This document shows positions 52,764 through 62,931 of a stretch of 64,000 nt of DNA, in pieces. The notes under the pieces are model-generated. The model saw only the letters and a list, made by a program, of their open reading frames with translations, was not told the DNA's origin and ran no database searches. Positions within the stretch are counted from its first letter, which is position 1. Each line of letters opens with the position of its first letter. A program made the position numbers and the translations under genes. This DNA comes from Gordonia malaquae NBRC 108250. Its GTDB lineage: Bacteria; Actinomycetota; Actinomycetes; Mycobacteriales; Mycobacteriaceae. The stretch is from positions 1 through 64,000 of the forward strand of contig NZ_BAOP01000029.1 in NCBI RefSeq assembly GCF_000344135.1, in the 5' to 3' direction.

Positions 52764-52835
52764 TCCGCCGTGGTGTAATCGGCAACACTCCTGATTTTGG
52801 TTCAGGCATTTCAGGTTCGAGTCCTGGCGGCGGAG
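52764..52835 (+). tRNA. tRNA-Gln(TTG), integration target
   Basis: Acceptor TCCGCCG/CGGCGGA, anticodon stem CCTGA/TCAGG with loop TTTTGGT (anticodon TTG), and T-arm CAGG/CCTG with TTCGAGT. The last 24 bases belong to the 26-bp attachment core repeated at 62906, so the gene stays whole after integration. Confidence 0.95.
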
Positions 52836-52837
52836 CA
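52812..52837 (+). other. attL core (26 bp)
   Basis: The sequence starts CAGGTTCGAGTCCTGGCGGC and covers the T-arm, acceptor 3' strand and the two bases after the tRNA. It is identical to 62906-62931. Confidence 0.93.
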
Positions 52838-52842
52838 AGGCA

Positions 52843-52864
52843 AACACCCAGATAGATGGGTGTT
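52843..52864 (+). terminator. Element-supplied terminator for tRNA-Gln
   Basis: AACACCCA/TGGGTGTT with a 6-nt loop lies 6 bp inside the element. Integration displaces the native tRNA downstream sequence to the other side of attR, so this hairpin probably ends tRNA-Gln transcription. Confidence 0.6.
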
Positions 52865-52886
52865 CCGCTCGTCCCTCGCGGGACGC

Positions 52887-52905
52887 CGTGCACCAACTGT
52901 GCACT
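52887..52905. promoter_or_regulatory. Candidate integrase arm site, left end
   Basis: CGTGCAC-CAACT-GTGCACT. The same CGTGCAC-N5-GTGCACT pattern occurs at 62768-62786 near the other end. Matching spacing in both element ends suggests arm-type sites for the integrase or excisionase. Confidence 0.45.
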
Positions 52906-52981
52906 TGGCCTCTGAATGAGTCAGCCCCGGACGGTGTTCGCGCACCAGTCCAGGGCCTCGACACACCGGAGGCATGACCCG

Positions 52982-53128
52982 ATGCATCGTCCCACAACCC
53001 TATCCGCGACCACCGACACGAGCGCACCCCGCTCGATGCGGTGGTCGTTGTGCGTTCGTGACGACGTCGCCGAGCTTCGGCCCGCGTCGATCGACGAACT
53101 CCTCGACTTCGCCGAGGTGATCGCGTGA
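52982..53128 (+). CDS. Small element protein, first of rightward trio (48 aa)
   Basis: Starts MHRPTTLSATTDTSAPRSMR and ends LLDFAEVIA. ATG 52982 has GGAGG 9 nt upstream. The C-terminal tail is nearly repeated at the end of the next gene (AAAEVIA), hinting at tandem duplication and decay. It overlaps the next gene by 4 bp. No function is recognised. Confidence 0.55.
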   Translation: MHRPTTLSATTDTSAPRSMRWSLCVRDDVAELRPASIDELLDFAEVIA

Positions 53129-53400
53129 ACGCCGCTGACGCCCTCGAAGGCATCCTCAACGATCCGCGCGCTGTGGCAACCCGAACGGACGGGTTCTACG
53201 ACTGCTCCGACACCGACAGCCCATGCGGCCTGTCAGACACGTTCTGCGGGCACGTCTGGAACAGCATCCACCAGACCGACGACGCCGTCGTTCACGTCCT
53301 GCACGGTGCGATCACGATGCCCGAGCCGAGCGCCCTATCGGGACCGGCGGCACTGAACCTGGCACGCACCCTCATCGCAGCGGCAGAGGTGATCGCATGA
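53125..53400 (+). CDS. Small Cys-containing element protein (91 aa)
   Basis: Starts with GTG overlapping the previous stop, with ribosome site GAGGTGATC shared as coupled signal. It reads MNAADALEGILNDPRAVATR, has a Cys/His group (YDCSDTDSPCGLSDTFCGH) and ends in a helix (LNLARTLIAAAEVIA). The beta-strand plus final Ala/Leu helix pattern recurs in several proteins of this element and recalls DUF6907-type proteins of actinobacterial mobile DNA. That assignment is tentative. Confidence 0.6.
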   Translation: MNAADALEGILNDPRAVATRTDGFYDCSDTDSPCGLSDTFCGHVWNSIHQTDDAVVHVLHGAITMPEPSALSGPAALNLARTLIAAAEVIA

Positions 53401-53822
53401 GCAACGACGAACTGATCGACGTCGCCGGTCGCTGCGCTGACTTCTGCGAGGGCGCGATCTGCGGCGACCACGGCGCCACCGACACGCCGCTCGCCGAGCA
53501 TGGCGAGTTCTGCACCGGCACCTCACGCGCCGGTGTCGGCCGCGGCCCCAACTACGAACGCGTCGAAGTGTGGCTGTCCGCGGCCATGCCGTACCGAGTC
53601 GGCCCGACAACCCGGTCCGCGATGATCCGCGACCGCGAGACGCGCGGCAACGCCGAAGGTTTCGTCGGCGTCTACGTCGAGCACGGCAACGCGTCCTCGG
53701 GGATCCCTGACGTGCTTCTGACCGCCGGTGAGGCGCGCCAGCTTGCCGCGGCCCTGCTGTGGATCGCTGACGGTCTCGACAGCCTCGACCGGCCGCACCC
53801 GTCGATCCGACGACAGAAGTAG
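53397..53822 (+). CDS. DUF6907-like small zinc-binding-type protein (141 aa)
   Basis: Starts MSNDELIDVAGRCADFCEGA. It has an N-terminal Cys/His cluster (CADFCEGAICGDHG then HGEFCTG), a beta-rich middle and the terminal helix LTAGEARQLAAALLWIADGL. The helix pattern x-EAR-x-LA-x-AL recurs in DUF6907-like proteins. ATG overlaps the preceding stop with the same GAGGTGATCGC signal. A role in element control or host modulation is possible but not shown. Confidence 0.65.
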   Translation: MSNDELIDVAGRCADFCEGAICGDHGATDTPLAEHGEFCTGTSRAGVGRGPNYERVEVWLSAAMPYRVGPTTRSAMIRDRETRGNAEGFVGVYVEHGNASSGIPDVLLTAGEARQLAAALLWIADGLDSLDRPHPSIRRQK

Positions 53823-53831
53823 ACCCGCTCC

Positions 53832-53909
53832 CGCCTCGACGGTCCCTCGACAGGGCTCGCATTCCAGATGCGGCCCCTCGCTGGCCGGGTTCGACTCCCG
53901 GCGAGGCAC
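53832..53909 (+). tRNA. Degenerate tRNA-like sequence, possibly tRNA-Trp(CCA)
   Basis: The T-arm is excellent (CCGGG-TTCGACT-CCCGG). The acceptor is good (GCCTCG/CGAGGC with an outer C-A mismatch). An anticodon arm TCGCA-TTCCAGA-TGCGG reads CCA. The D-arm is irregular, lacking the GG of the D-loop, and the variable loop is 11 nt, longer than normal for Trp. It may be a decayed element-borne tRNA or a tRNA mimic. Confidence 0.4.
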
Positions 53910-54592
53910 GAACCGCGGCGCTCATTACCCGCGGTAGATCGACGTCGTTCTTGCAGAGCTAGACGAAAACCAGCCTGCTCCCAGTAGCCTCGTCGACGCC
54001 TGGGACGTCGCCACCGGAGGATCGCGACCATGCCGGTGCCATGACTCGACGCGCGCTGTCTCAGCGGGCGCTACTCGTCGTGGCCGGACGCGATAGGGGC
54101 GTGGTTCGTGGGTCGATCGACCGGGATGGGGCCAACGCTCCGGCACACCTGTAGGTGTTCCATTGGCAGTGACCACAACCCGACATGACCACGTAGCCGG
54201 GTCGCCTAGCTGTCAGTCCTCGAGTCCCGAGCATCGCCAACGTCTGATCGATCCGAGCCAGCACGACTTCCGCACCTAGAGATGCGAGAGTGAAGATCAC
54301 CGTGACTTTGTGGACATCGCTTCTGGATGACAGACCAGTGCTGACCACCCTATTGCTCCCCTCGGAGGGTCGCCGCGCACCCTCAGGCATTGGCGGTGTC
54401 TCTCTCCGCTGTTTTTCCACAACCGCCGACCGGTGCTCGACCGGCAGCACTCGAACCGATGCCCGTACCCAGGCATATGCCCCTCCGCGCCGGGGTGCCG
54501 TGGTCCCGTTGGTCATACGTGTTCTGTTCGGCTACGGGTCTGGGGATCTGGCGGCCGCTCGCGAGGGCAAGGTCCGTGGCGCTGCCACCCGC

Positions 54593-54619
54593 GATCATCG
54601 TGTTGATAACACGATGATC
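54593..54619. promoter_or_regulatory. Perfect 27-bp palindrome
   Basis: GATCATCGTGTT-GAT-AACACGATGATC: 12-bp perfect arms around 3 bp, AT-rich within GC-rich DNA. It has no following T-run, so a protein-binding operator or origin element is more likely than a terminator. Confidence 0.6.
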
Positions 54620-54647
54620 CACGTCGGCGCGGCGTAGCCTGAGCGGT

Positions 54648-54707
54648 GCAGGGCAGTCCCGTTCCAGCCGCGAAATAATCGGCCGTCAGAACGAGCGGGG
54701 GCCCTGC
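54648..54707 (+). other. Branched stem-loop upstream of the 102-aa gene
   Basis: GCAGGG (54648) pairs with CCCTGC (54702); within it CCCGTTC faces GAACGagCGGG, and within that GCCG faces CGGC around an AT-rich loop. The structure ends 32 nt before ATG 54740. It could be a 5'-UTR structure or single-strand origin. Confidence 0.45.
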
Positions 54708-54739
54708 ATCTATCTGGAAGAGGTGATCACCGATGAGGT

Positions 54740-55048
54740 ATGACTGTGATCACAGTTTCCGGTTCGCAGGTAGCCGATGACCTGGACGCGAAACTTGGGG
54801 ATGTCCTCTCCGCGAAGCGGGTTCCTGATGGGTATGGCGACAGGTCTCACTGGGAGACTTCCGCCGGCACTCGGCTGTACGTCCATCAAGGGGGCCGCGG
54901 TGCAAGTCTGACCATGGCGTCAGGGCTCGACGATGGGCACCACAACAGTGATGCAGTCGCCGTGTTCGATGCGGTCATCCGCTGCGTGCCCGGGCACGCG
55001 GAACTACTTGATGAGGACGACAACGTCATCCGATCGAGAGAGTGGTGA
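54740..55048 (+). CDS. Hypothetical element protein (102 aa)
   Basis: Starts MTVITVSGSQVADDLDAKLG. It is predicted mixed alpha/beta and acidic, ending DEDDNVIRSREW. There are no Cys-rich motifs and no recognised family. Codon use is strongly GC3-biased, supporting a real gene. It stands alone between the palindrome region and a hairpin (55064-55091), convergent with the long leftward operon. Confidence 0.6.
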   Translation: MTVITVSGSQVADDLDAKLGDVLSAKRVPDGYGDRSHWETSAGTRLYVHQGGRGASLTMASGLDDGHHNSDAVAVFDAVIRCVPGHAELLDEDDNVIRSREW

Positions 55049-55063
55049 CCAATGGACCCCTGA

Positions 55064-55091
55064 CCTCCCCCTCGGTCAACGGGGGGGGAGG
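55064..55091 (+). terminator. GC-rich terminator hairpin
   Basis: CCTCCCCC/GGGGGAGG with a 12-nt loop, 15 bp after the 102-aa gene. Its right arm lies inside a G-rich tract. Confidence 0.6.
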
Positions 55092-55108
55092 GGGGTAGTC
55101 GGGGAGGG
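55081..55108 (+). other. G-quadruplex-forming tract
   Basis: Four G-runs (8, 6, 4 and 3 G) are separated by A, TAGTC and A. This meets the standard G3+N1-7 quadruplex rule and is unusual even in high-GC DNA. Confidence 0.6.
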
Positions 55109-55231
55109 TGAACGCCTATGACCCGAGGGGCGTCGGAACTGCTCGAGGGGTCCGCCCCCCCCTGGGGAACTTCTAAACAAGGAGAACTCCACTTCCGCGC
55201 CTGACCTGGTAGGTAGACCGACATCGACCAG

Positions 55232-55277
55232 CGAGGCCCCGAGCTAGCCCGCGGTCTTCGCGGTGCTCGGGGCCTCG
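55232..55277 (-). terminator. Terminator of the long leftward element operon
   Basis: Perfect 13-bp arms CGAGGCCCCGAGC/GCTCGGGGCCTCG with a 20-nt loop, 17 bp beyond the last gene of the operon. Confidence 0.85.
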
Positions 55278-55293
55278 TGTTGTTGTGCTCGGG

Positions 55294-56199
55294 TCAGGCG
55301 AGTCTGCGGGTCGTTCCTGGTTGTGGGAGCGGTTCGTGGTGGGTGATGTTGCGGATGGTGGCGGTCAGGTTGGCGAAGTGTGCGCGGTCGCGGCCGACGT
55401 TCCCGCTGTGCCAGTTGTGGCGGCAGAGCTGGTCTGCCGCGTTGTCGATGGTGCGGAGTTCGTCGGCGCTCGGTAGCCATGGTTGGTGGTCGGCGACGGC
55501 CAGGATCGTTTCGGCTCGTGTGCGGTCGATGGGCACGGTGAGTCCGCGGAACCATCTGAGTATCGCCGGGTCGGGGTACTCCTCGAGGATGCTGGTGACG
55601 CTGCGTCGTCGGAGCCAGTGGGGGTCGACGTCGAGGAAGTCTCGGCAGTGCACGGAGTCGATCGCTGTTCCTGTGAGTCCTTCGTCGCGGAGCCGGATCT
55701 GTCGCTTGTACTCGGCGCGGAGCCGGTCGTAGTCGTCGAGGATCTGTTCGGCGGTCTGGTATTCGTCGGCGGTCCCTGCTGCCATCGCGGTGCGGGCGTC
55801 GGTGGTGTGCCGTTCGATCAGGTCGCGGTGTTTGTCGACGCGGGCCATGATGCTGTCGAGTTCGTCTTGGCACATGTCGAGTGCGGTGTCGACGAAGCTC
55901 TTCTCGAGGCTCACCGGGAGCACGGTGTGTTGCAGGGTGCTGGCGACGACGTTTGAGCCGAACAGGTCGACCGCGATCTGGCGGGCCTTGGCGTCTACGT
56001 AGTCGTTGACGAGGTCGTCGGGGTCAGCTCCGTTGCGGAGGCGGTCTCGGAACTGTTCGTCGACGTCGACCCGTTCCGCCCGCGCAGTCGAGGAGTACGC
56101 CATGAGTCGGGCCTTTAGTCCGCGGGCGTTCTGCAGGTCGGTGTTGGCTGCTTCGATCCGTTCTCGGATCGGCAGCGTCTTGGTGGCGGTCTTGCGCAT
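55294..56199 (-). CDS. Large hypothetical element protein (301 aa)
   Basis: Starts MRKTATKTLPIRERIEAANT. The first ~180 residues are helical with coiled-coil character (RIEAANTDLQNARGLKARLM; DDYDRLRAEYKRQIRLRDEG). The rest has a Trp/His-bearing region (DVDPHWLRRRSV and RHNWHSGN). There is no signal or membrane segment and no recognised family. It is the last gene of the operon, just before the terminator. In phage satellites this position may carry a protein interfering with helper phage, but nothing here proves it. Confidence 0.7.
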   Translation of the reverse strand: MRKTATKTLPIRERIEAANTDLQNARGLKARLMAYSSTARAERVDVDEQFRDRLRNGADPDDLVNDYVDAKARQIAVDLFGSNVVASTLQHTVLPVSLEKSFVDTALDMCQDELDSIMARVDKHRDLIERHTTDARTAMAAGTADEYQTAEQILDDYDRLRAEYKRQIRLRDEGLTGTAIDSVHCRDFLDVDPHWLRRRSVTSILEEYPDPAILRWFRGLTVPIDRTRAETILAVADHQPWLPSADELRTIDNAADQLCRHNWHSGNVGRDRAHFANLTATIRNITHHEPLPQPGTTRRLA

Positions 56200-56201
56200 G
56201 G

Positions 56202-56384
56202 TCAGAGTCCTCGTCCCTGCTTGAACCGTTCGCGGCCGCCTTCAACGCTGCCGGTCGGCTTCTTCTCGGGGTCGGCGGGTTCGCGGGTTTCGGCGACGAG
56301 GGAGTCGAACTGGTCGTCGTCCATGTCGGCGATGTACTGCTTGACTCCGGCGACGAGGGCTTCGGTGTTGGGTGTGCTGGCCAT
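56202..56384 (-). CDS. Small hypothetical element protein (60 aa)
   Basis: Starts MASTPNTEALVAGVKQYIAD. It has a helix with an acidic end (DMDDDQFDSLVAE) and a basic tail (GGRERFKQGRGL). It lies tightly between two operon genes (2 bp and 1 bp gaps). No family recognised. Confidence 0.6.
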   Translation of the reverse strand: MASTPNTEALVAGVKQYIADMDDDQFDSLVAETREPADPEKKPTGSVEGGRERFKQGRGL

Positions 56385-56385
56385 G

Positions 56386-56715
56386 TCAGGATCCTTGTTT
56401 GAGGTGTGCGTATTCGTTGACGGTCGCGCGGCGGAAGATCCACCGGCCGGCGACCTGTTCGCCGTCGAGGTCGGTGGCGATCCTGCGAACGTTCCGACTA
56501 GTGCACCGCAGGATCCGCGAGGCGGTCTCGGTGTCGATCAGGTCATCCGGTTCTGAGTGTTGTTCCTGCGGCCTTTCGCTTGTTCCGTATGCGGACGCCT
56601 CGGCGAGTAGCCGCCGCACCTGCTCGGGAATGGGTTGGCCGGTGAGCTGTCGGCGGCGTACGAACTCGGCGGTGACGTAGACGATCAGGCGTGCCTGGTC
56701 GTCAGAGACGTCCAC
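56386..56715 (-). CDS. HTH DNA-binding protein (109 aa)
   Basis: The C-terminal half (LIDTETASRILRCTSRNVRR, then WIFRRATVNEYAHLK) matches the MerR/excisionase-type winged HTH that opens with an 'x-E-x-A-x-x-L' helix. The N-terminal half is a helical cap (QARLIVYVTAEFVRRRQ). A regulatory or recombination-directionality role is plausible. It overlaps the upstream gene by 14 bp. Confidence 0.65.
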   Translation of the reverse strand: MDVSDDQARLIVYVTAEFVRRRQLTGQPIPEQVRRLLAEASAYGTSERPQEQHSEPDDLIDTETASRILRCTSRNVRRIATDLDGEQVAGRWIFRRATVNEYAHLKQGS

Positions 56716-57049
56716 TGCTGCCCTTGGCGAGTGCGTCGGCGATCTTGTTCGCGAGTTCGAGGGCGTCGGCCGGGCTGTGCATGATCCCGTGAATCGACAG
56801 GTGACCGCTGGCGTGAACGGTGACTGTGCCGACCGGCGACTGTCGATGCTCGGTGCACAGTCGCGATGCGGACCGGGTACGTCCTCGGCAGCCGGCGGCG
56901 GTGCAGTCGTACATGGGGCGGTGTGTGGGCATGGCGGGATCTCCTGGGGTCGTTGTGAGGGGGATGCACTGTTCGCATGTCCAGCCGTGGGCTGGGCCGC
57001 GGTAGCGCGGGCAGGGCCGCGTGCAGATTCGGCAGACGAACGGCGTCAC
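56702..57049 (-). CDS. Zinc-ribbon-type small protein (115 aa)
   Basis: The N-terminus has two Cys pairs (CRICTRPC and CEQCI), then CTAAGCRGRTRSASRLCTEH, enough to hold two zinc ions. The C-terminus has a beta segment and the Ala/Leu helix (SPADALELANKIADALAKG) shared with other element proteins. Unknown function. ATG overlaps the WhiB-like stop by 4 bp. Confidence 0.65.
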   Translation of the reverse strand: MTPFVCRICTRPCPRYRGPAHGWTCEQCIPLTTTPGDPAMPTHRPMYDCTAAGCRGRTRSASRLCTEHRQSPVGTVTVHASGHLSIHGIMHSPADALELANKIADALAKGSSGRL

Positions 57050-57357
57050 GATGCGGCCTTACGCGGTCGACCGGGGATGGCCGGTTCGGGTGTGTGTCCC
57101 GCGATAGTGTGGCCGGTCGGGTTCGGTTCTGTGGCCGCCCAAGCAGTGCAGGCGGCGCGTGCTGGGCACCTGTCGCAGAGGGCCCTGGCACGTTCGCCTT
57201 TTTCGCGCGCGTGCGCGTGGGTTTCGGTGGCGTGCCGGCCGTCGAACAGTTCATGCCGTCCGATGCACGCGGCATCCTCAAGTTTCGGCGTGGACCGCAG
57301 AACCTTGATCAACAGCTGCTCGCACCCGGCCGGGTCGAAGTTGCGACCGAGGGTCAT
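57046..57357 (-). CDS. WhiB-like iron-sulfur protein, atypical
   Basis: The 103-residue protein has the four-Cys WhiB arrangement: EDAACIG (Cys 1), then ARALCDRCPARAACTAWA with the C-x2-C-x5-C cluster. WhiB proteins hold a redox-sensitive [4Fe-4S] cluster and bind sigma factor to control promoters. The usual G[VI]WGG turn is missing (GHTIAGHTP instead), and the C-terminus is basic (GRPRKAAS). Phage WhiB (e.g. mycobacteriophage TM4 WhiBTM4) can silence host WhiB genes, so host takeover or superinfection control is possible. It sits mid-operon. Confidence 0.8.
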   Translation of the reverse strand: MTLGRNFDPAGCEQLLIKVLRSTPKLEDAACIGRHELFDGRHATETHAHAREKGERARALCDRCPARAACTAWAATEPNPTGHTIAGHTPEPAIPGRPRKAAS

Positions 57358-58088
57358 CGGCGGGCCTTCGACTCAAGACGCGCGGCCGCCTCTGTAGCGC
57401 TCTCACGCGCATGGCGCTGCTTAAGCCCACTGAGTTCCGGCGCAGTACCGTACGACTCGCGATCGCTCTGGTGACCCTTCACGACATCAGCGAACGACTC
57501 CGGGGCAGTTTCGTCCCACAGGCTCTCGATCGCCCACGCGTGTTTCAAGTTGATGCCCTCGACTAGTGGGCAGCTGTAGGTCTCACGGAGCTTGCGAAGG
57601 TCGAAACCGGGGCCTCCCGTCATGATCCCGAGGATTCGGTACCGGCCCGTGCGCCGCGGACGAATACCCCACCGTTCTGCGGACCGATCTACTTCGTGCC
57701 CGTTGAGGGCGACTCCCCAGGTCGCGACGATCCCGCTCGCATCGAACCGCGGTTGGCCGCTGAGGAAATCGAGGGTGTCGGTGAAGTGGAACATGTCGTG
57801 GACGTAGAAGATCCCACACGAGCACTCGGGTGATGGTGGCGTGTGGCCGTGATGGCACGACGCGACGATCACAGGGGCGTCGTACTCGCTGGCAACCAAC
57901 GGTGACGCAAGCAGTCCGTTCGGGCCAACCTTCCAGTACCGCCAACCGAAGTCGTACACGTGGTCGCGGCGGAGTTGGCTGAATCCAAGTTCATCGAGCC
58001 TGGCCAGGCATTCAGCATGGAGACGCTGATCGTCGACCTCGTCATGGATTGTCGGGCGATTCTTCCGTCGTCGAGGTTTCGTACTCAT
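57354..58088 (-). CDS. Hypothetical element protein (244 aa)
   Basis: Starts MSTKPRRRKNRPTIHDEVDD. It has a basic N-terminus, a Cys/His region (CHHGHTPPSPECSCG) that may bind zinc, an internal WGVALNGHEVDRS, and a charged C-terminal helix ending ESKARR. No known family. ATG 58088 overlaps the stop of the next-upstream gene; the longer open frame is shadow. Confidence 0.65.
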   Translation of the reverse strand: MSTKPRRRKNRPTIHDEVDDQRLHAECLARLDELGFSQLRRDHVYDFGWRYWKVGPNGLLASPLVASEYDAPVIVASCHHGHTPPSPECSCGIFYVHDMFHFTDTLDFLSGQPRFDASGIVATWGVALNGHEVDRSAERWGIRPRRTGRYRILGIMTGGPGFDLRKLRETYSCPLVEGINLKHAWAIESLWDETAPESFADVVKGHQSDRESYGTAPELSGLKQRHARESATEAAARLESKARR

Positions 58089-58309
58089 CAGATGTGTCCT
58101 TCGTCGAGAGCATCGTGGAGGGCGTCGGCGAGTCGACGCGCTTGGGAAGAGGTGAACGTGAGGCCGGCGAAGCTGATGCTGTCGCCGGGGACGCGGTGCA
58201 CGAACGGGATCGCATCGGCGGGCCGGTGGTCGGTGCAGTATCCGGTGACCGATCGAGTGCCACGGGCGCAGGAGTCGCATTTGCGTGTGGGGCGTCTGCG
58301 GCGGGTCAT
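58088..58309 (-). CDS. Small zinc-finger-like protein (73 aa)
   Basis: Starts MTRRRRPTRKCDSCARGTRS. The Cys/His set CDSCARGTRSVTGYCTDH can bind one zinc, followed by a beta hairpin and the recurring terminal helix SSQARRLADALHDALDEG. It overlaps both neighbours by ATGA. Function unknown. Confidence 0.65.
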   Translation of the reverse strand: MTRRRRPTRKCDSCARGTRSVTGYCTDHRPADAIPFVHRVPGDSISFAGLTFTSSQARRLADALHDALDEGHI

Positions 58310-58746
58310 CGAACGGCCCTCAACCCTCGGCGGGGATCCGGTGGCGCCGTGTAGGTCGCGGTGCCGGTGAACGTCATCGGATCCCACGCGACGGTTACTT
58401 GTCCGCGGTCTCCGGGCTTCTCGTTCGGTGCCAGCGAGTACGGCCCGACAACCACTGGTTCGACCGGATGCTCTGCGGGATCGGCCGGCCACAGGTGCGA
58501 CACGCGTAGGCCTCCGTCATCGAGGGACAGATACGACACCATCGGTCGGCCGTCCGAGTAGAGGGTGAACGCGTGGAGAAGCCGCGGCAGGTCGAGCTTG
58601 GCGGCGCTGAGGGCGTCGAGCGGCCCGGAACAGCAGTCGTCGGCGTGTCCGTGATCGGATGCGGTCTGGTCGAGCCATTCGACTACGCCGAGGAGTCGGC
58701 GGACTTGTGCGATCAACTCGTCGGTGTGACGGTTCGGGGAGTGCAT
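58306..58746 (-). CDS. Hypothetical element protein (146 aa)
   Basis: Starts MHSPNRHTDELIAQVRRLLG. It has an N-terminal helical part with HGHADDCCSG, then a beta-rich part (YLSLDDGGLRVSHLWPAD). No recognised family. It ends overlapping the 73-aa gene and begins next to the stop of the helicase gene. Confidence 0.6.
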   Translation of the reverse strand: MHSPNRHTDELIAQVRRLLGVVEWLDQTASDHGHADDCCSGPLDALSAAKLDLPRLLHAFTLYSDGRPMVSYLSLDDGGLRVSHLWPADPAEHPVEPVVVGPYSLAPNEKPGDRGQVTVAWDPMTFTGTATYTAPPDPRRGLRAVR

Positions 58747-60051
58747 TTACTCGGCCTCCTGTCGGTTGAGGATCTGTTGAACTCGGCTGGTCACTCCGGG
58801 CGTGGACGCGGTGATCCCTCCGGGAGGTGTCTGACTGGTGCCACCGGTGTGCTCGCGCGTAGACCGTGGCACAGGTGGCACGGGTCGTTTCGAGTCACTA
58901 CCAATGCTCTGACCTGGTGTTTCGATCACTCGCTGACCTGTGCCACCTGTGCCACGTGCCACGTGTGGTGAGCCGGTGGCATGGGTTGAGGGCAGGCGCC
59001 ATGTCGATTTCCGGCCGTCGAAGTCGATCGCGACGCCGAGGTCCTGGCGGGCTCGCTGCAACGTTCGCTCGCTGAATCCTGCGGCCTTGCCGTCGCGCTT
59101 GGCATCGGCCGAATCGCGGATCTGGTAGCCGAGGTAGGCGCTGAGCCAGTCCGACGCCGCGGTTCGTTCGGGGCCGTCCGACGCTTCGACGGGCCGGCCG
59201 GCGTCGCGGAGGACGTCGCCGACGCTCTTGTCGGAGTCGCCGAGGATCACGAACCGGCCGACCTCGGCGACACGTCCGGAGTCCGTGCGGATCTCGGTGG
59301 ACTCGATGCGGTAGCTCAGGGCGAGGCTCTCGTCGCCGAGACTGTTCTTCTCCTGGGACATGACGCGTTCGCCGTTCTCGGCGTCGGGGTCCTTGGCGAA
59401 ACCGAAGACGGAGCGGGCGATCTCGCCGAACGCGGACGACCCGTTGATTCCGGCGACGACGTCGCCGTTGCCGCTCTTGTTGAGGTGGGCGATCCCGACG
59501 ACGACGCCGTCGATCTTCTCGGCGAGCTGGCGCCACGGTTCCAGATGCGATCGGACCTCGTTGTTCCGGTTCACGTCGGCCTTGCCGCCGATCATCGACA
59601 TGAGCGGGTCGACCACGACGAGCCGCACTCCGTTGGTGCGGCACGCCTCGATGAGGAGGTCCATGTCGGCGGTCGCGACGGGCGTCTGTCGGACTCCGTC
59701 GTCGAACCGGATCTCGACCTCGGGGAAGAACACTCGGGCGAGGTCGGCACCGTGAGCGCGAAGACTCGGTTTGACCACGTAGCTGATGGACTCCTCGCGG
59801 GCGACGTAGGCGACGTTGGTCGGTTGTCCGAGCCAGCATCCGGCGAGGGTCCCTCGGGTGACCTGAGCGACGAACCATCGTGCGCTCGTCGACTTGCCGG
59901 CACCGGGGCGTCCGGCCCACAGGGACACGGTGCTCAGGGCGATTCGGCCGCGGTCGCCGTAGGTCCATGCCCAGGTCGGGACGTCGTCGGGAATGTCGCT
60001 GGCGCGGTTCATGACGATCTGACGCGTGTAGTCCTGGTCGGGAGTGCTCAC
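58747..60051 (-). CDS. RepA/DnaB-type helicase ATPase
   Basis: A 434-residue RecA-fold hexameric helicase-like ATPase: Walker A SLWAGRPGAGKSTSARW near residue 45, Walker B RLVVVDPLMSMIGG, and the DnaB/RepA motif IAHLNKSGNG with a following Arg-bearing loop. After residue ~310 comes a winged-helix-like segment (SERTLQRARQDLGVAIDF) and a disordered Pro/Thr-rich tail. GTG 60051 overlaps the upstream DnaB-N-like gene by 4 bp. It probably opens the element's own origin. Confidence 0.85.
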   Translation of the reverse strand: MSTPDQDYTRQIVMNRASDIPDDVPTWAWTYGDRGRIALSTVSLWAGRPGAGKSTSARWFVAQVTRGTLAGCWLGQPTNVAYVAREESISYVVKPSLRAHGADLARVFFPEVEIRFDDGVRQTPVATADMDLLIEACRTNGVRLVVVDPLMSMIGGKADVNRNNEVRSHLEPWRQLAEKIDGVVVGIAHLNKSGNGDVVAGINGSSAFGEIARSVFGFAKDPDAENGERVMSQEKNSLGDESLALSYRIESTEIRTDSGRVAEVGRFVILGDSDKSVGDVLRDAGRPVEASDGPERTAASDWLSAYLGYQIRDSADAKRDGKAAGFSERTLQRARQDLGVAIDFDGRKSTWRLPSTHATGSPHVARGTGGTGQRVIETPGQSIGSDSKRPVPPVPRSTREHTGGTSQTPPGGITASTPGVTSRVQQILNRQEAE

Positions 60052-60512
60052 GCGGCACCTCCTCGGACCGCGGCGAGGCGTTCCCAGATCGCGCGGAGTT
60101 CCTTCCCCTCGCGGATCAGGAGCGACCACAGATCGAACTCGGGTGCGTCCTCGGCGCTCGCGGTGAATGCTTCGCCGGCGGCTGCGAGCCGCGCGCGGAA
60201 CACTCGTGCGAGGACGGACGCCGCGTACTCCGGCATGAGTTCCGGGTAGGCGACGGTCGTCACTGCTTCGGCCAGACGCGTGCGGACGAGATCTCCGGCA
60301 TGCCCGGCATAGTGACCGCGGCGCAAGAGTTCGGCTCCGACGAAGGCAGCGTCCGGCGCGCGGCCCGACGCCGCGAGCTCGAGCGATAATTCGAGGATGG
60401 TCGCCGTTGGCGCATCGAGCAGACGGACGCTGTCCGGTTGGCAGACGCCGAGGATCTCGGCGACCTGGTGGGCCGGCGCGAGAAGCGTTGCAGCTAGCAG
60501 GGTTTTAGGCAT
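60048..60512 (-). CDS. DnaB N-terminal-domain-like protein
   Basis: The 154-residue all-helical protein reads like an isolated DnaB N-domain: LLAATLLAPAHQVAEILGV (the opening helix), ILELSLELAASGRAPDAAF, VGAELLRRGHYAGHAGDLVR. In ordinary DnaB this domain forms the ring collar and binds primase, and is fused to the ATPase. Here it is separate and ends by overlapping the ATPase gene. Start ATG 60512 was chosen because it fits the fold; an open frame to 60761 overlaps the neighbour. Confidence 0.75.
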   Translation of the reverse strand: MPKTLLAATLLAPAHQVAEILGVCQPDSVRLLDAPTATILELSLELAASGRAPDAAFVGAELLRRGHYAGHAGDLVRTRLAEAVTTVAYPELMPEYAASVLARVFRARLAAAGEAFTASAEDAPEFDLWSLLIREGKELRAIWERLAAVRGGAA

Positions 60513-60717
60513 CGGCGCCGCCTCGGCACTTCGGGCCGACGTGCTCGGCGACACTGCGATCGGCCACCAACCACGACCGGCAGACTCTGCAGCGGACCGC
60601 CAGGCGGTATCCACGCGCTCGAGCTTCGGCATGTAGTTGGGCGTCGGGGCCGAGATCGGGATCATAGGAATGATCGGGCGGATTTTGGGTACGCGAAGTA
60701 GGATTGTCCTTGGACAT
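60505..60717 (-). CDS. DUF6011-like zinc-finger protein (70 aa)
   Basis: Starts MSKDNPTSRTQNPPDHSYDP and ends with a single zinc site, CRVCRSWLVADRSVAEHVGPKC, in which the Cys-x2-Cys, His-x-Gly-Pro and final Cys match the DUF6011 pattern common in actinophages. A TTG-started version to 60789 lacks a ribosome site. It overlaps the DnaB-N-like gene by 8 bp. Confidence 0.65.
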   Translation of the reverse strand: MSKDNPTSRTQNPPDHSYDPDLGPDAQLHAEARARGYRLAVRCRVCRSWLVADRSVAEHVGPKCRGGADA

Positions 60718-60836
60718 CTGGTGTGATTCCATTCCTGCCCCCGGGTTTCCCGAAATATCATTTCGGGCCGGGGGCGGTTCAGTTTCCAACAGGAGCGGTC
60801 AGGAGCCTTTGGAACTGCGAAAGAATGCCGCCGAAT

Positions 60837-60965
60837 CTAGCGGCGTAGATCGTCGGTGTTGTCGACGTCGAGTGGGTAGTCGAGACCGAGATCTTCAGTG
60901 TCAGCGATTTCCTCGTAGCGATCAGCGCGCGAAGATTGCCGATGCCCATCGCTGAACAATGGCAT
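60837..60965 (-). CDS. Very small acidic protein (42 aa)
   Basis: Starts MPLFSDGHRQSSRADRYEEI and ends in a run of Asp-rich motifs (DYPLDVDNTDDLRR). ATG 60965 lies 5 bp after the excisionase stop. The acidic, patterned composition and operon position support it. No family recognised. Confidence 0.5.
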   Translation of the reverse strand: MPLFSDGHRQSSRADRYEEIADTEDLGLDYPLDVDNTDDLRR

Positions 60966-60970
60966 GGCGA

Positions 60971-61147
60971 TCAGGCCGCGGATCCGCGGAGCCATGCCGC
61001 GAGGTCATCCTCACGGATTCGGATTGACCTTGGTCCGATGCGTGTAGCAGGGATTGAACCGTCCGCAATGCGGCGTCGAACTGTCTTCTCGCTGAAGCCG
61101 CTCTTCTCGGCTGCTGCACGAATCGAGAGATAGGTCGGTACGCTCAC
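60971..61147 (-). CDS. xis: Excisionase (HTH_17 type)
   Basis: GTG 61147 has GGAGG 7 nt upstream. The 58-residue protein is a compact winged HTH: YLSIRAAAEKSGFSEKTVRR, then IADGSIPATRIG and IRIREDDLAAWLRG. Such proteins bend attachment-site DNA and direct integrases to excision. It heads the replication-gene series and overlaps the preceding ORF by 4 bp. Confidence 0.85.
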   Translation of the reverse strand: MSVPTYLSIRAAAEKSGFSEKTVRRRIADGSIPATRIGPRSIRIREDDLAAWLRGSAA

Positions 61148-61362
61148 TCTGACACCTCCGGGTGTTGGTGTAGGGAAGCGTCGACGTCGGATCCGCCAAG
61201 ATTGAGCGTCGGCGCTTCCCCTGTATTTGATTGGGTCAAGTCCGTCCACGGATTTCCTCGGGGGGATTCCTTGGGACTGTCCAAAAGTAGATCAGAGTTC
61301 ACCGGCATTGTCAGGGTCGGATTCCACAGGTGTGCCCGGAGCTCGTCCGAGTAAATGCGCAA
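61144..61362 (-). CDS. Hypothetical small protein upstream of xis (72 aa)
   Basis: Starts at TTG 61362 and ends overlapping the xis GTG. It is polar with little predicted structure (PKESPRGNPWTDLTQ). Coupling with xis is the main support; an internal ATG at 61308 is an alternative start. Could be a leader ORF. Confidence 0.4.
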   Translation of the reverse strand: MRIYSDELRAHLWNPTLTMPVNSDLLLDSPKESPRGNPWTDLTQSNTGEAPTLNLGGSDVDASLHQHPEVSE

Positions 61363-61618
61363 CGCGCACGCCTCAAGATGACCTCTCGGTCACCTCTCGC
61401 GGCGTCCCGTAGGCAACACAAGGACATACTCGTCTCCGTAGGCACGGCGTACGCGGAGGGGGCTGTTCGGTGCGCTATATGCAAAGACCAGCCGTAATGT
61501 CGAGATCCCGGGCAGCGTGGAGTCGGAGCCGAGAAGCTCCCTAGCTCCCCCTACTCCGCAACGCGAGACAGTTCATCTGAATGGGGGACACGACATGCCG
61601 ACCGACACGCCGATAGTG
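61363..61618. promoter_or_regulatory. int-xis intergenic region
   Basis: 256 bp without a gene between the integrase stop and the xis operon. It should hold the promoter of the leftward operon. Short complementary runs (GGAG/CTCC near 61520-61560) are present, but no clear operator stands out. Confidence 0.4.
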
Positions 61619-62767
61619 CTATTCGGAGTCCTCGTCCGGCTTCGCGACGAGCGCGCTCATCGCAGCTGCGACCGATGCATCCCGACCCGCGGCGATGTGC
61701 TGATAGTTCATCGCGACCGCCGGCGTCGTGTGGCCGAGACGACCCATGAGCTCCCTGACTGTCGCACCGGCCTGCGCGGCGAGCACGGCACCGGTGTGGC
61801 GAAGATCGTGGACGCGGACGTTCTTCTTGCCGGCGGGTAGCGCTGCCTTGAACGTTTTCGTGAACGCCGACTGTGACAACCGTTTGCCGCGCGTGGTGCG
61901 GAACAGCAGCGACTCAGGGCCGGGGCCGACGTACTCGGTGATGTGCGCCTCGAGGATCGTCGCGATGTGCGGCGGCAGGACGACATCGCGGGCACCCGCT
62001 TCGGTCTTGGTGTTGCCGACGACGATCTGCCCGTCCACGAGCGTCGCAGCGCGGCGGATGCGGAGCGAGACCACACCGTTCTCGCGGACCACGTTCTTGC
62101 GGCGTAGTTCGATCAGTTCGCCGAATCGGAGACCGGCCCATGCGGCGACGAGGACCGCGGCACGGTACGACTTCGGCATGGCGGCGTACACGTCGTCGAG
62201 CTCGGCCGGAGTCAGGATCTCGTGATCGCGGCGCTTCGGGGCCTGCCCGGCGCCCTTGATCTTGCACGGGTTCTCGACGATCAGGTGGTCGTCGACTGCC
62301 GTGTTGAGGATGGACCTCAGCAGTTGGTACGCGTGCGCGGAGCGCGTCGGGTACTCACTCCCGAGTCCTGCCCACCAGGTGCGGATGAGAGCGGGGGAGA
62401 GGTCGGACAGGTACTCGTCGCGCATCGTCGGGAGGATGCGGCTGTCTAGCAGTCCGCGATAGAGCGATCGCGTCTTGGGAGTGAGGTCGCGCTCGACGAG
62501 CCACTGTTCGGCGTACTCGCCGAACATGACGAGCGACGCGGCCTTGGTCTCGGATCGCTCGGCCGGCGGAGTCCATTCGCCGAGTTGGATCAGGCGGGAC
62601 TCGGCGGCGAGCCAACCCTCGGCGTCGATCTTCGCGTCGTACGTGTGCGGTGCCGTGTAGTAGCGGCCGGACCCGCGCGGGTCGGGATATGACGCCTGGT
62701 ACCGGCCGCTCGGCAGCTGGCGGAGCTTGCCGAACGTGCGGCGCTTCGCCGAGCGTGCCCTAGCCAT
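61619..62767 (-). CDS. int: Tyrosine integrase of the tRNA-Gln element
   Basis: The 382-residue protein has an AP2-like arm-binding N-terminus (GKLRQLPSGRYQASYPDPRG), a core-binding SAM-like domain (residues ~60-160) and the catalytic domain with Arg in AWAGLRFGELIELRR, HDLRHTGAVLAAQAG, GRLGHTTPAVAMNYQH with the Tyr nucleophile. All catalytic residues are present. ATG 62767 was chosen; a longer frame to 62830 crosses the palindrome. It lies about 140 bp inside attR and reads inward. Confidence 0.93.
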   Translation of the reverse strand: MARARSAKRRTFGKLRQLPSGRYQASYPDPRGSGRYYTAPHTYDAKIDAEGWLAAESRLIQLGEWTPPAERSETKAASLVMFGEYAEQWLVERDLTPKTRSLYRGLLDSRILPTMRDEYLSDLSPALIRTWWAGLGSEYPTRSAHAYQLLRSILNTAVDDHLIVENPCKIKGAGQAPKRRDHEILTPAELDDVYAAMPKSYRAAVLVAAWAGLRFGELIELRRKNVVRENGVVSLRIRRAATLVDGQIVVGNTKTEAGARDVVLPPHIATILEAHITEYVGPGPESLLFRTTRGKRLSQSAFTKTFKAALPAGKKNVRVHDLRHTGAVLAAQAGATVRELMGRLGHTTPAVAMNYQHIAAGRDASVAAAMSALVAKPDEDSE

Positions 62768-62786
62768 CGTGCACGGTCCGTGCACT
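62768..62786. promoter_or_regulatory. Candidate integrase arm site / operator, right end
   Basis: CGTGCAC-GGTCC-GTGCACT; GTGCACGG-T-CCGTGCAC at 62769-62785 is a perfect 17-bp palindrome. It abuts the integrase start codon, so binding there could both form the recombination complex and repress int. The matching site at the left end is 52887-52905. Confidence 0.5.
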
Positions 62787-62905
62787 ACATGAGTTTGACT
62801 GTGGGTTGTTGTGCCCGCTCGTGTCCACATGTAGAGTCTCTGTCACCTGCACAGTTAACGTCAATATCTGCAGGTAGTCCAACTGAAACGACTCAGTTCA
62901 GCGGC

Positions 62906-62931
62906 CAGGTTCGAGTCCTGGCGGCGGAGCA
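62906..62931 (+). other. attR core (26 bp)
   Basis: Perfect copy of the tRNA-Gln 3' end (52812-52837). Upstream bases diverge at once, defining the crossover region. Confidence 0.93.

Follow-up and report, generated by a model that had tools for sequence, protein, structure and literature searches.

A probable cos-type phage satellite without a recognisable capsid gene at a tRNA-Gln gene of Gordonia malaquae

We asked what kind of mobile element is inserted at a tRNA-Gln gene of Gordonia malaquae NBRC 108250 and by what route it could leave its host. The DNA analysed is a stretch of 64,000 nucleotides (contig NZ_BAOP01000029.1, positions 1 to 64,000; hereafter the window), in which an initial annotation had described a 10-kb element at 52812..62931 as a phage satellite or an integrative replicon. 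We conclude that this block is very probably a cos-type phage satellite of Gordonia, similar to the phage-inducible chromosomal islands (PICIs), that would be packaged by the terminase of a helper phage. The first of the two options is favoured because the block carries a phage-type cos site and because sister elements hold a capsid or a tape-measure gene in the corresponding place. Below, G numbers denote genomes or elements in them, L numbers fetched loci and C a contig.

Element boundaries and core genes

The ends of the element are defined by att direct repeats that are identical at 26 of 26 positions (left copy 52812..52837, right copy 62906..62931, both + strand) and spaced by 10,094 bp. 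The left one forms the 3' end of the integration target, a tRNA-Gln(TTG) gene (52764..52836, + strand; ARAGORN; Rfam RF00005, 56.2 bits) that is left intact, so that the perfect 26-bp repeats in tRNA-Gln reported by the initial annotation were confirmed. Is the same block present in all relatives at this tRNA, which that annotation had named as an outcome that would speak against it? It is not: the joined element flanks align unbroken to the Gordonia genome G038 (query 1-600, 85% identity) and the tRNA-Gln site is therefore empty there. All 59 Gordonia genomes searched gave some match, which in the remaining 57 was mostly limited to the tRNA surroundings. A 25/26 match to the att core of the window adjoins the integrase gene of G011, and the two integrases are 65% identical.

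From the right end leftwards the genes encode the integrase, an excisionase-type helix-turn-helix (HTH) protein, p94, p154, a helicase, p146, p73, the product of an unassigned open reading frame (ORF), a WhiB-like protein, p115, an HTH protein, p60 and p301; an opposite-strand group (p70, p91, p141, p102) lies at the tRNA end. The tyrosine integrase (61619..62767, - strand, upstream start at 62830 possible; PF00589 9.5e-17, phrog_1 2.6e-59) is intact and the excisionase-type HTH gene (60971..61249, - strand, start uncertain; PF12728 9.5e-12, phrog_66 2.2e-9, phrog_1840 9.8e-7) adds a predicted excision function, which together make the block an integrated, att-bounded element apparently equipped for its own movement. 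The ORF of the RecA/DnaB-like replication helicase (AAA_25; 58747..60051, - strand; PF13481 4.2e-23, phrog_10729 3.5e-89) may start at 60129. With its neighbour protein the helicase points, by homology, to a replication module of the element's own. The initial annotation had listed an intact integrase and xis, replication-type genes and a WhiB-like protein, and all of these found profile matches, the last at 57046..57357 (- strand; PF02467 7.7e-6, phrog_472 4.9e-7).

Twenty ORFs of the element, some of them extended beyond the frame of the called gene, were compared with Pfam and PHROGs (cut-off E 0.1). None matched a family of capsid, portal, terminase, tail, lysis or conjugation proteins, in line with the absence of capsid, portal, terminase, lysis and conjugation genes noted initially, and the element has no complete virion gene set. 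The ratios of nonsynonymous to synonymous substitutions (dN/dS), calculated by a single method (NG86), were 0.31 for the helicase, 0.24 for the integrase and 0.28 for the HTH protein.

A cos-like site in non-coding DNA

Does the element carry a signal that a helper terminase could use? A 48-nt cos-like packaging site was found in non-coding DNA at 54504..54551 (+ strand). With a matrix of six phage sites (ReT1v-1, Cornie, McProf, prophiGD51-2, prophiFSIL01-1 and prophiFVLQ01-1; phage sites alone, satellites left out) this is the top position in the 64-kb window with 21.4 bits, followed by 8.8 bits for the next one, and the highest score in 60 Markov resamples was 14.1 bits. It is a candidate for the helper packaging signal expected of a satellite, its recognition by a helper being predicted only.

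The non-coding motif is common to the window and two sister elements, G007b and G004. The window site aligns with that of G007b by BLASTN (48 nt, 83%, 5e-6), and the G007b site in turn matches nucleotides 2-44 of the linear records of the Rhodococcus phages ReT1v-1 and ReT1v-2 (88%, 2e-6); the putative window site is tied to the phage sites via these sisters and via the matrix. For the other rows of the matrix the BLAST E values were weak (prophiGD51-2 2e-2, McProf 0.3, FVLQ 0.3, FSIL 3, Cornie 9) and the rows were kept because the sites adjoin terminase genes; 12 of the 19 records considered were dropped (3 from Vibrio, 4 from Burkholderia, 4 from Arthrobacter and 1 from Escherichia). Leave-one-out scores were 41-53 bits for five of the phage sites and -8 for Cornie, a value that includes a penalty of -26 for 13 missing columns. 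The exact site pattern had 0 matches in viral contigs.

The genes around the phage sites are arranged alike. In all six matrix phages and prophages the site follows an HNH endonuclease gene and precedes the gene of the terminase small subunit (TerS), with ReT1v-1 and Cornie counted across their joined ends, the ends of linear records being taken as cut ends of virion DNA on the strength of the records. The site lies between the two genes in prophiGD51-2, prophiFSIL01-1 and prophiFVLQ01-1, and between HNH and terminase with three genes intervening in McProf. In Cornie it is at the left genome end and the HNH gene at the right end. In ReT1v-1 the small terminase gene is at nucleotide 100, and the last gene (L062 41337-41636), annotated as hypothetical, encodes an HNH protein that shares 43-46% identity with the HNH proteins of G007b and G004.

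We then scanned 793 kb of fetched loci with the matrix (loci of at least 5 kb, overlaps included, phage loci excluded; threshold 12 bits). Besides the window, the matches were G007b (43.8 bits), G004 (39.6), a prophage in G027 (36.4), a second locus in G004 (35.3), G054 (30.8), a remnant in G003 (28.9) and a prophage in G038 (16.4). In both prophages the site lies between an HNH and a TerS-like gene. In G054 a predicted ORF overlaps the site with its 3' end, and protein coding could therefore contribute to that match. A model search of the 59 Gordonia genomes gave seven places at E <= 2e-5, namely five satellite loci, the G027 prophage spacer and the G003 remnant; this sequence-only model included the window, G007b and G004, so that three of the seven places were model members. 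Seven weaker matches of the same model had E values of 0.027-0.08. The G003 remnant (L097, G003:C111, 7951-8554) is a cos-like site beside an integrase fragment at a tRNA-Ser gene, apparently what is left of a satellite.

Could a phage resident in the same genome be the helper? A prophage on contig C86 (L077/L078) has HNH, TerS-, TerL-, portal-, capsid- and tape-measure-like genes in phage order, and its capsid protein is 33% like that of the G014 satellite. Between its HNH and TerS genes, the spacer has 56 bp in common with the G038 prophage (91%) but lacks the satellite motif, and for this spacer we rejected the prophage as a matched helper.

Virion genes in sister elements

Next, we asked whether the element belongs to a family. 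Of 151 genomes, 21, among them that of the window, had helicase relatives at E <= 1e-20. The 20 neighbourhoods retrieved comprised 11 with bounding att repeats of at least 20 bp and one with a weak 16-bp repeat; no att repeat was found at the remaining eight. Two further att-bounded elements came from a search with p301, giving 13 besides the window. Their repeats measure 20-59 bp and are exact in 11 cases (G007a, 38 nt, 95% identical; G004, 24 nt, 96%). With G020a (weak repeat) and G011 (ends unknown) this makes 16 elements, annotated with our own gene caller; G009 and G017 (L037, L038) are near-identical copies and only G009 was counted. The hosts are Gordonia and relatives (G012 is Gordonia sp. 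'Campus', G054 Gordonia sputi NBRC 100414; the relatives compared include Jongsikchunia kroppenstedtii, of the same family as the window). The bounded elements are 5.8 to 19.6 kb long and lie at tRNA-Gln, Leu, Ser, Arg, Pro, Thr, Val, Gly and Lys genes; at the G124 and G020a insertions a tRNA gene was not found.

All 16 elements share the integrase cluster and 14 the helicase cluster. G004 and G007b have a different protein in the helicase position, and in G007b this 796-aa protein shares an 85-aa stretch with the L042 replication protein. The search of other genomes for the gene set, which the initial annotation had proposed, has thereby yielded 13 other att-bounded elements with an integrase, a small HTH protein and usually a related helicase.

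Half of the 16 elements (G014, G009, G011, G020a, G020b, G034, G074 and G069) carry a major capsid protein gene behind the helicase. Four of these calls were made by profile (phrog_10 or phrog_1650, PF05065 or PF25209) and four by membership of the same BLAST clusters. G014 has, besides the capsid, a head-scaffold-type protein, a head-maturation-protease-like protein and an HNH endonuclease, and 'one gene only' is therefore not a strict rule. Two elements carry a 1750-aa tape-measure protein instead of the capsid: G012 (L023 2923-8181, element 16.2 kb; phrog_10780, E reported as 0) and G054 (L024 2764-8013, element 19.6 kb; 37-43% to Gordonia phage tape measures among the matches listed). Both genes lie inside att repeats, of 46 bp in G012 and 31 bp in G054. 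No other structural family was found among the other proteins scanned, 4 of 19 in G012 and 5 of 15 in G054 (a neck-protein match at 0.0099 was ignored); the five from G054 include an HNH endonuclease. Three elements, the window, G007b and G004, carry neither capsid nor tape measure and have instead the pair p60-p301. In the last three (G007a, G124, G082), part of whose ORFs were scanned, a virion gene was not recognised. A 150-aa protein of G082/G083 was considered as a TerS and rejected, as it matched only families of DNA-binding, regulatory or unknown function. 'Non-structural', the term used in the initial annotation, holds for the window copy and fails for the family, whose other members include carriers of a capsid or a tape measure.

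The place of p60-p301 can be compared gene by gene. The HTH gene directly before p60 (56386..56715, - strand; 77% to L048, 60% to L049; phrog_66 0.0032) has relatives in six elements, where it is followed by p60-p301 in three, by the capsid in two (G014, G011) and by the tape measure in one (G012). A second G004 locus (L096; G004:C1:3943000-3953000), which is outside the 16 and was fetched as 10 kb, in which neither ends nor an integrase were seen, has the order p146, p73, WhiB, a 109-aa ORF, a candidate scaffold (without a profile match), a truncated capsid, capsid, cos and a p141 homologue. It thus has a capsid where the window has p301.

The p60-p301 pair and its possible role

p301 (55294..56199, - strand) is a predicted helical protein and a candidate virion-assembly or interference protein, and p60 (56202..56384, - strand) is a small protein encoded just upstream. 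Both have homologues in G007b and G004 (p301 57% and 47%, p60 60% and 56% identical), and p60 precedes p301 in all three. The dN/dS of p301 was 0.52 and 0.74 (NG86, one method). A structure predicted from the alignment of three sequences is helical with a mean confidence (pLDDT) of 54.6, and therefore too poor for a fold search. By profile, p301 is not a capsid protein. It had no match in phage records, IMG/VR or PADLOC, and chance-like matches only among PDB sequences (best E 0.55). In samples drawn from the family (301 genomes) and the order (397 genomes), matches reaching 1e-6 and 1e-5 came from the window and G004 only, G007 probably not being among those drawn. Matches in G036 (1.3e-4) and G038 (9e-4) were dropped as the surrounding 20 kb lacked the satellite gene set by BLAST. 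Clear relatives of p301 were thus confined, in the searches made, to three Gordonia satellites. Behind p301 in G007b and G004 there is an HNH endonuclease of phrog_333, which is the best family also for the HNH protein of the G027 prophage beside its cos.

What could p301 do? Satellites are known to redirect helper assembly with proteins such as Sid, CpmA/B, Ccm, TcaP and Rcm. Because p60-p301 occupy the place of the capsid or tape-measure gene of the sisters, p301 with p60 may act in particle assembly, by redirecting capsid size, by favouring satellite over helper DNA or by interference; we regard this as plausible, if a little short of probable. In a more general and more tentative form, the cos-type satellites of Gordonia and relatives might have, behind the regulator block, an exchangeable 'hijack slot' filled either with phage-derived virion genes (a capsid or, unusually, a tape measure that would act on tails) or with p60-p301 as an unrelated redirector. 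In two satellites the tape measure was the sole virion structural family recognised in the scanned proteins; if it is used, this would point to hijacking at the tail step.

The main rival to an assembly role is that p60-p301 are anti-phage or host-benefit cargo of the satellite, which we consider a possibility, though a doubtful one. Other satellites seem to carry cargo, e.g. a protein with a Fic-type motif (seen by eye) in G054, and p301 is restricted to three Gordonia satellites (with the two weak matches dropped) and evolves fairly fast. Yet p301 has no PADLOC match, and the pair follows the HTH gene that precedes the capsid or tape measure in sisters, with the HNH gene behind it in G004 and G007b.

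Satellite, integrative plasmid or prophage remnant

How would a cos-type satellite of this kind move? In the mechanism that we propose, a helper phage of the HNH endonuclease-cos-TerS class would enter the cell or be induced, Int and Xis would excise the element as a 10.1-kb circle and the element's helicase module would replicate the circle to concatemers. The helper terminase and its HNH protein would cut at the element cos, element DNA would fill helper-made heads and leave in helper particles, and p301 with p60 would redirect or disturb helper assembly. Four copies of the element (4 x 10,094 = 40.4 kb) would come close to the 39.2 and 41.7 kb of the ReT1v phages, possibly by coincidence. 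With a concrete packaging signal and a candidate helper class (ReT1v, Cornie, McProf), transfer of Gordonia satellites becomes directly testable, in a genus with many sequenced phages.

Several observations weigh against this reading. The window site is the weakest satellite copy (21.4 versus 28.9-43.8 bits). Compared with the ReT1v-1 end alone it scores 16 and so stays within the range of 300 shuffles (mean 13.2, maximum 19), and BLASTN of the window region directly against phage sequences returned no actinophage. The site points the opposite way to the p301 operon, and an HNH gene like that of the sisters was not found in the window element; for these two reasons the window copy may have decayed in part. 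In none of the other 12 among the 16 elements does a site exceed 9 bits; elements without the motif may use other cos types. There is no known matching helper for the window strain, and the role proposed for p301 is deduced from its gene position.

Could the block instead be an integrative plasmid or mobilizable element that is moved by the FtsK-like translocase of another element, with its phage likeness incidental? Actinomycete integrative and conjugative or mobilizable elements (AICEs/AIMEs) encode a TraB/FtsK-type translocase or a relaxase. The window copy shares with them tRNA integration, Int/Xis and a plasmid-like helicase (36-38% to relatives on three plasmids, two from Streptomyces and one from Corynebacterium), and it has no virion gene. 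However, no relaxase, TraB/FtsK or other transfer family was found among the 20 ORFs by the Pfam scan, so that it does not have the genes by which an AICE or AIME is recognised. The helicase also resembles phage proteins: it is 49.5% identical to the primase/polymerase/helicase of Mycobacterium phage Boilgate and 44-50% to mycobacteriophage proteins among the matches listed (in IMG/VR the helicase alone as query had no match, and an alignment of four helicase sequences matched two contigs). Taken with the cos site and with sisters that carry a capsid or tape measure, this makes the plasmid explanation improbable.

An immobile prophage remnant without structural genes is at least as improbable: phage-type Int, Xis, helicase and cos, the weak cos site and the failure to find an HNH gene would fit it, but 13 other att-bounded elements share the compact layout, the frames are open with dN/dS below 1 (NG86) for helicase, integrase, HTH and p301, and p301 has no phage relative.

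Comparison with known satellites

Finally, we asked how the proposed satellite relates to systems already described. Abad et al. 2023 (PMC10654092) define candidate Mycobacterium PICIs by an integrase plus a major capsid protein; three of the four mapped are in tRNA genes. The Gordonia elements resemble them in the tRNA-specific tyrosine integrase, att bounds, a DNA helicase, sometimes tRNAs and few virion genes, which in Mycobacterium are the capsid and sometimes a scaffold or terminase (PMC10654092). They differ in host genus, and, as a capsid is required by that definition, the window element, which has no recognisable capsid gene, would be missed, while its capsid-bearing sisters would be found. 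Searches that require a capsid miss part of this satellite family. HNH was not found by a term search of PMC10654092, where the only match to 'cos' is in a species name. 'Poorly catalogued', as the initial annotation called such elements, is only partly right, since candidate Mycobacterium PICIs are already described there. New relative to these integrase-plus-capsid PICIs is a variant with a cos-like site, p60-p301 and no recognisable capsid. Among the matches listed from the open PMC literature no title dealt with Gordonia satellites or with satellite-borne tape-measure proteins.

As a working model for the capsid-bearing sisters, the cos-type Staphylococcus aureus pathogenicity islands (SaPIs) come closest. 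They are likewise small chromosomal islands using helper cos packaging; in SaPIbov5 a single capsid homologue, Ccm, redirects helper capsid assembly (PMC8569155). The SaPIs are staphylococcal and are likened here by description, and p301 differs from Ccm in its predicted helical structure and in not matching capsid proteins by profile. Capsid-forming PICIs and the Streptomyces satellites MulchRoom and MiniFlayer, the latter two also actinobacterial, combine HNH endonuclease and capsid genes and encode terminase, portal and capsid (PMC10690885), whereas none of these three was found among the 20 ORFs of the window element and the sisters have one or a few. The minimal Vibrio satellites (phage-inducible chromosomal minimalist islands, PICMIs) also lack capsid-remodelling genes and are mobilised by helper particles (PMC10803314). 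PICMI115, in contrast to the window element with its cos-like site, forms a headful-like 8-copy concatemer, lies next to fis and has no helper cos or pac identified in the text cited. The resident Gordonia prophage is similar in its HNH, TerS- and TerL-like genes and its capsid (33% to G014), and differs in having structural genes and a spacer without the satellite motif. A survey of actinobacterial prophages (PMC10023795) mentions that elements below 15 kb may be satellites.

Other genes of the element

SaPI and PICI core regulation has a divergent Stl-type repressor next to an alpA-like activator. In some sisters an HTH gene adjoins int (clusters 15 and 43, by eye). In the window none was seen there by eye, no model search having been aimed at one, and the WhiB-like protein and the second HTH are present instead.

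The remaining genes of the left-pointing group are small. p94 (60505..60789, - strand) is a zinc-binding-like protein (DUF6011 5.1e-5, short of its cut-off), relatives of which precede the helicase in L023, L024, L025 and L027. p154 (60048..60512, - strand; 46% to L024, 44% to L023, 47.5% to L049) adjoins the helicase, and p146 (58306..58746, - strand; 57% to L049, 53% to L048, 51% to L096) is kept in sister satellites. The Cys-containing p73 (58088..58309, - strand) is 51% identical to L049 8466-8687 and 53% to L096; the ORF at 57354..58280 (- strand), from the ORF list, has no family match and its true start is probably internal. p115 (56702..57049, - strand, ORF list) is a Cys-rich protein with a weak HNH profile match (0.069); over the gene caller's shorter frame, 56702-56932, it is 61% identical to L048 10108-10338. 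The gene caller also called a 52-aa ORF at 60837-60995, which was scanned by PADLOC only.

Further genes of the sisters were noted in passing. At the distal end of the tape-measure satellite G054 there are a Fic-type-motif protein and a possible nuclease (L060 15126-16307 and 18342-19178, both by eye), which may be cargo. Two satellites with different virion cassettes encode related proteins of 279 and 269 aa, 46% identical (L049 10805-11644 and L023 879-1688), which may be shared cargo.

In the opposite-strand group, p102 (54746..55048, + strand, alternative start 54740) was taken from the ORF list and the gene caller and p91 (53125..53400, + strand), without a family match, from the ORF list. 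ARAGORN alone reported a tRNA-Trp(CCA)-like sequence at 53832..53909 (+ strand); we rejected it as a true tRNA-Trp, as the Rfam tRNA model reports nothing there up to E 0.5. The Cys-containing p141 (53397..53822, + strand; family scan on the longer frame 53223-53822) has relatives in two G004 satellites, with 44.5% identity to L096 4451-4855 at the second G004 locus and 35% to L049. The outermost ORF, p70 (52916..53128, + strand; ORF list and gene caller), has an uncertain start, a later one at 52982 being possible, and the C-terminal 20-25 aa of its product resemble stretches of L018/L039 and L042 (72-86%).

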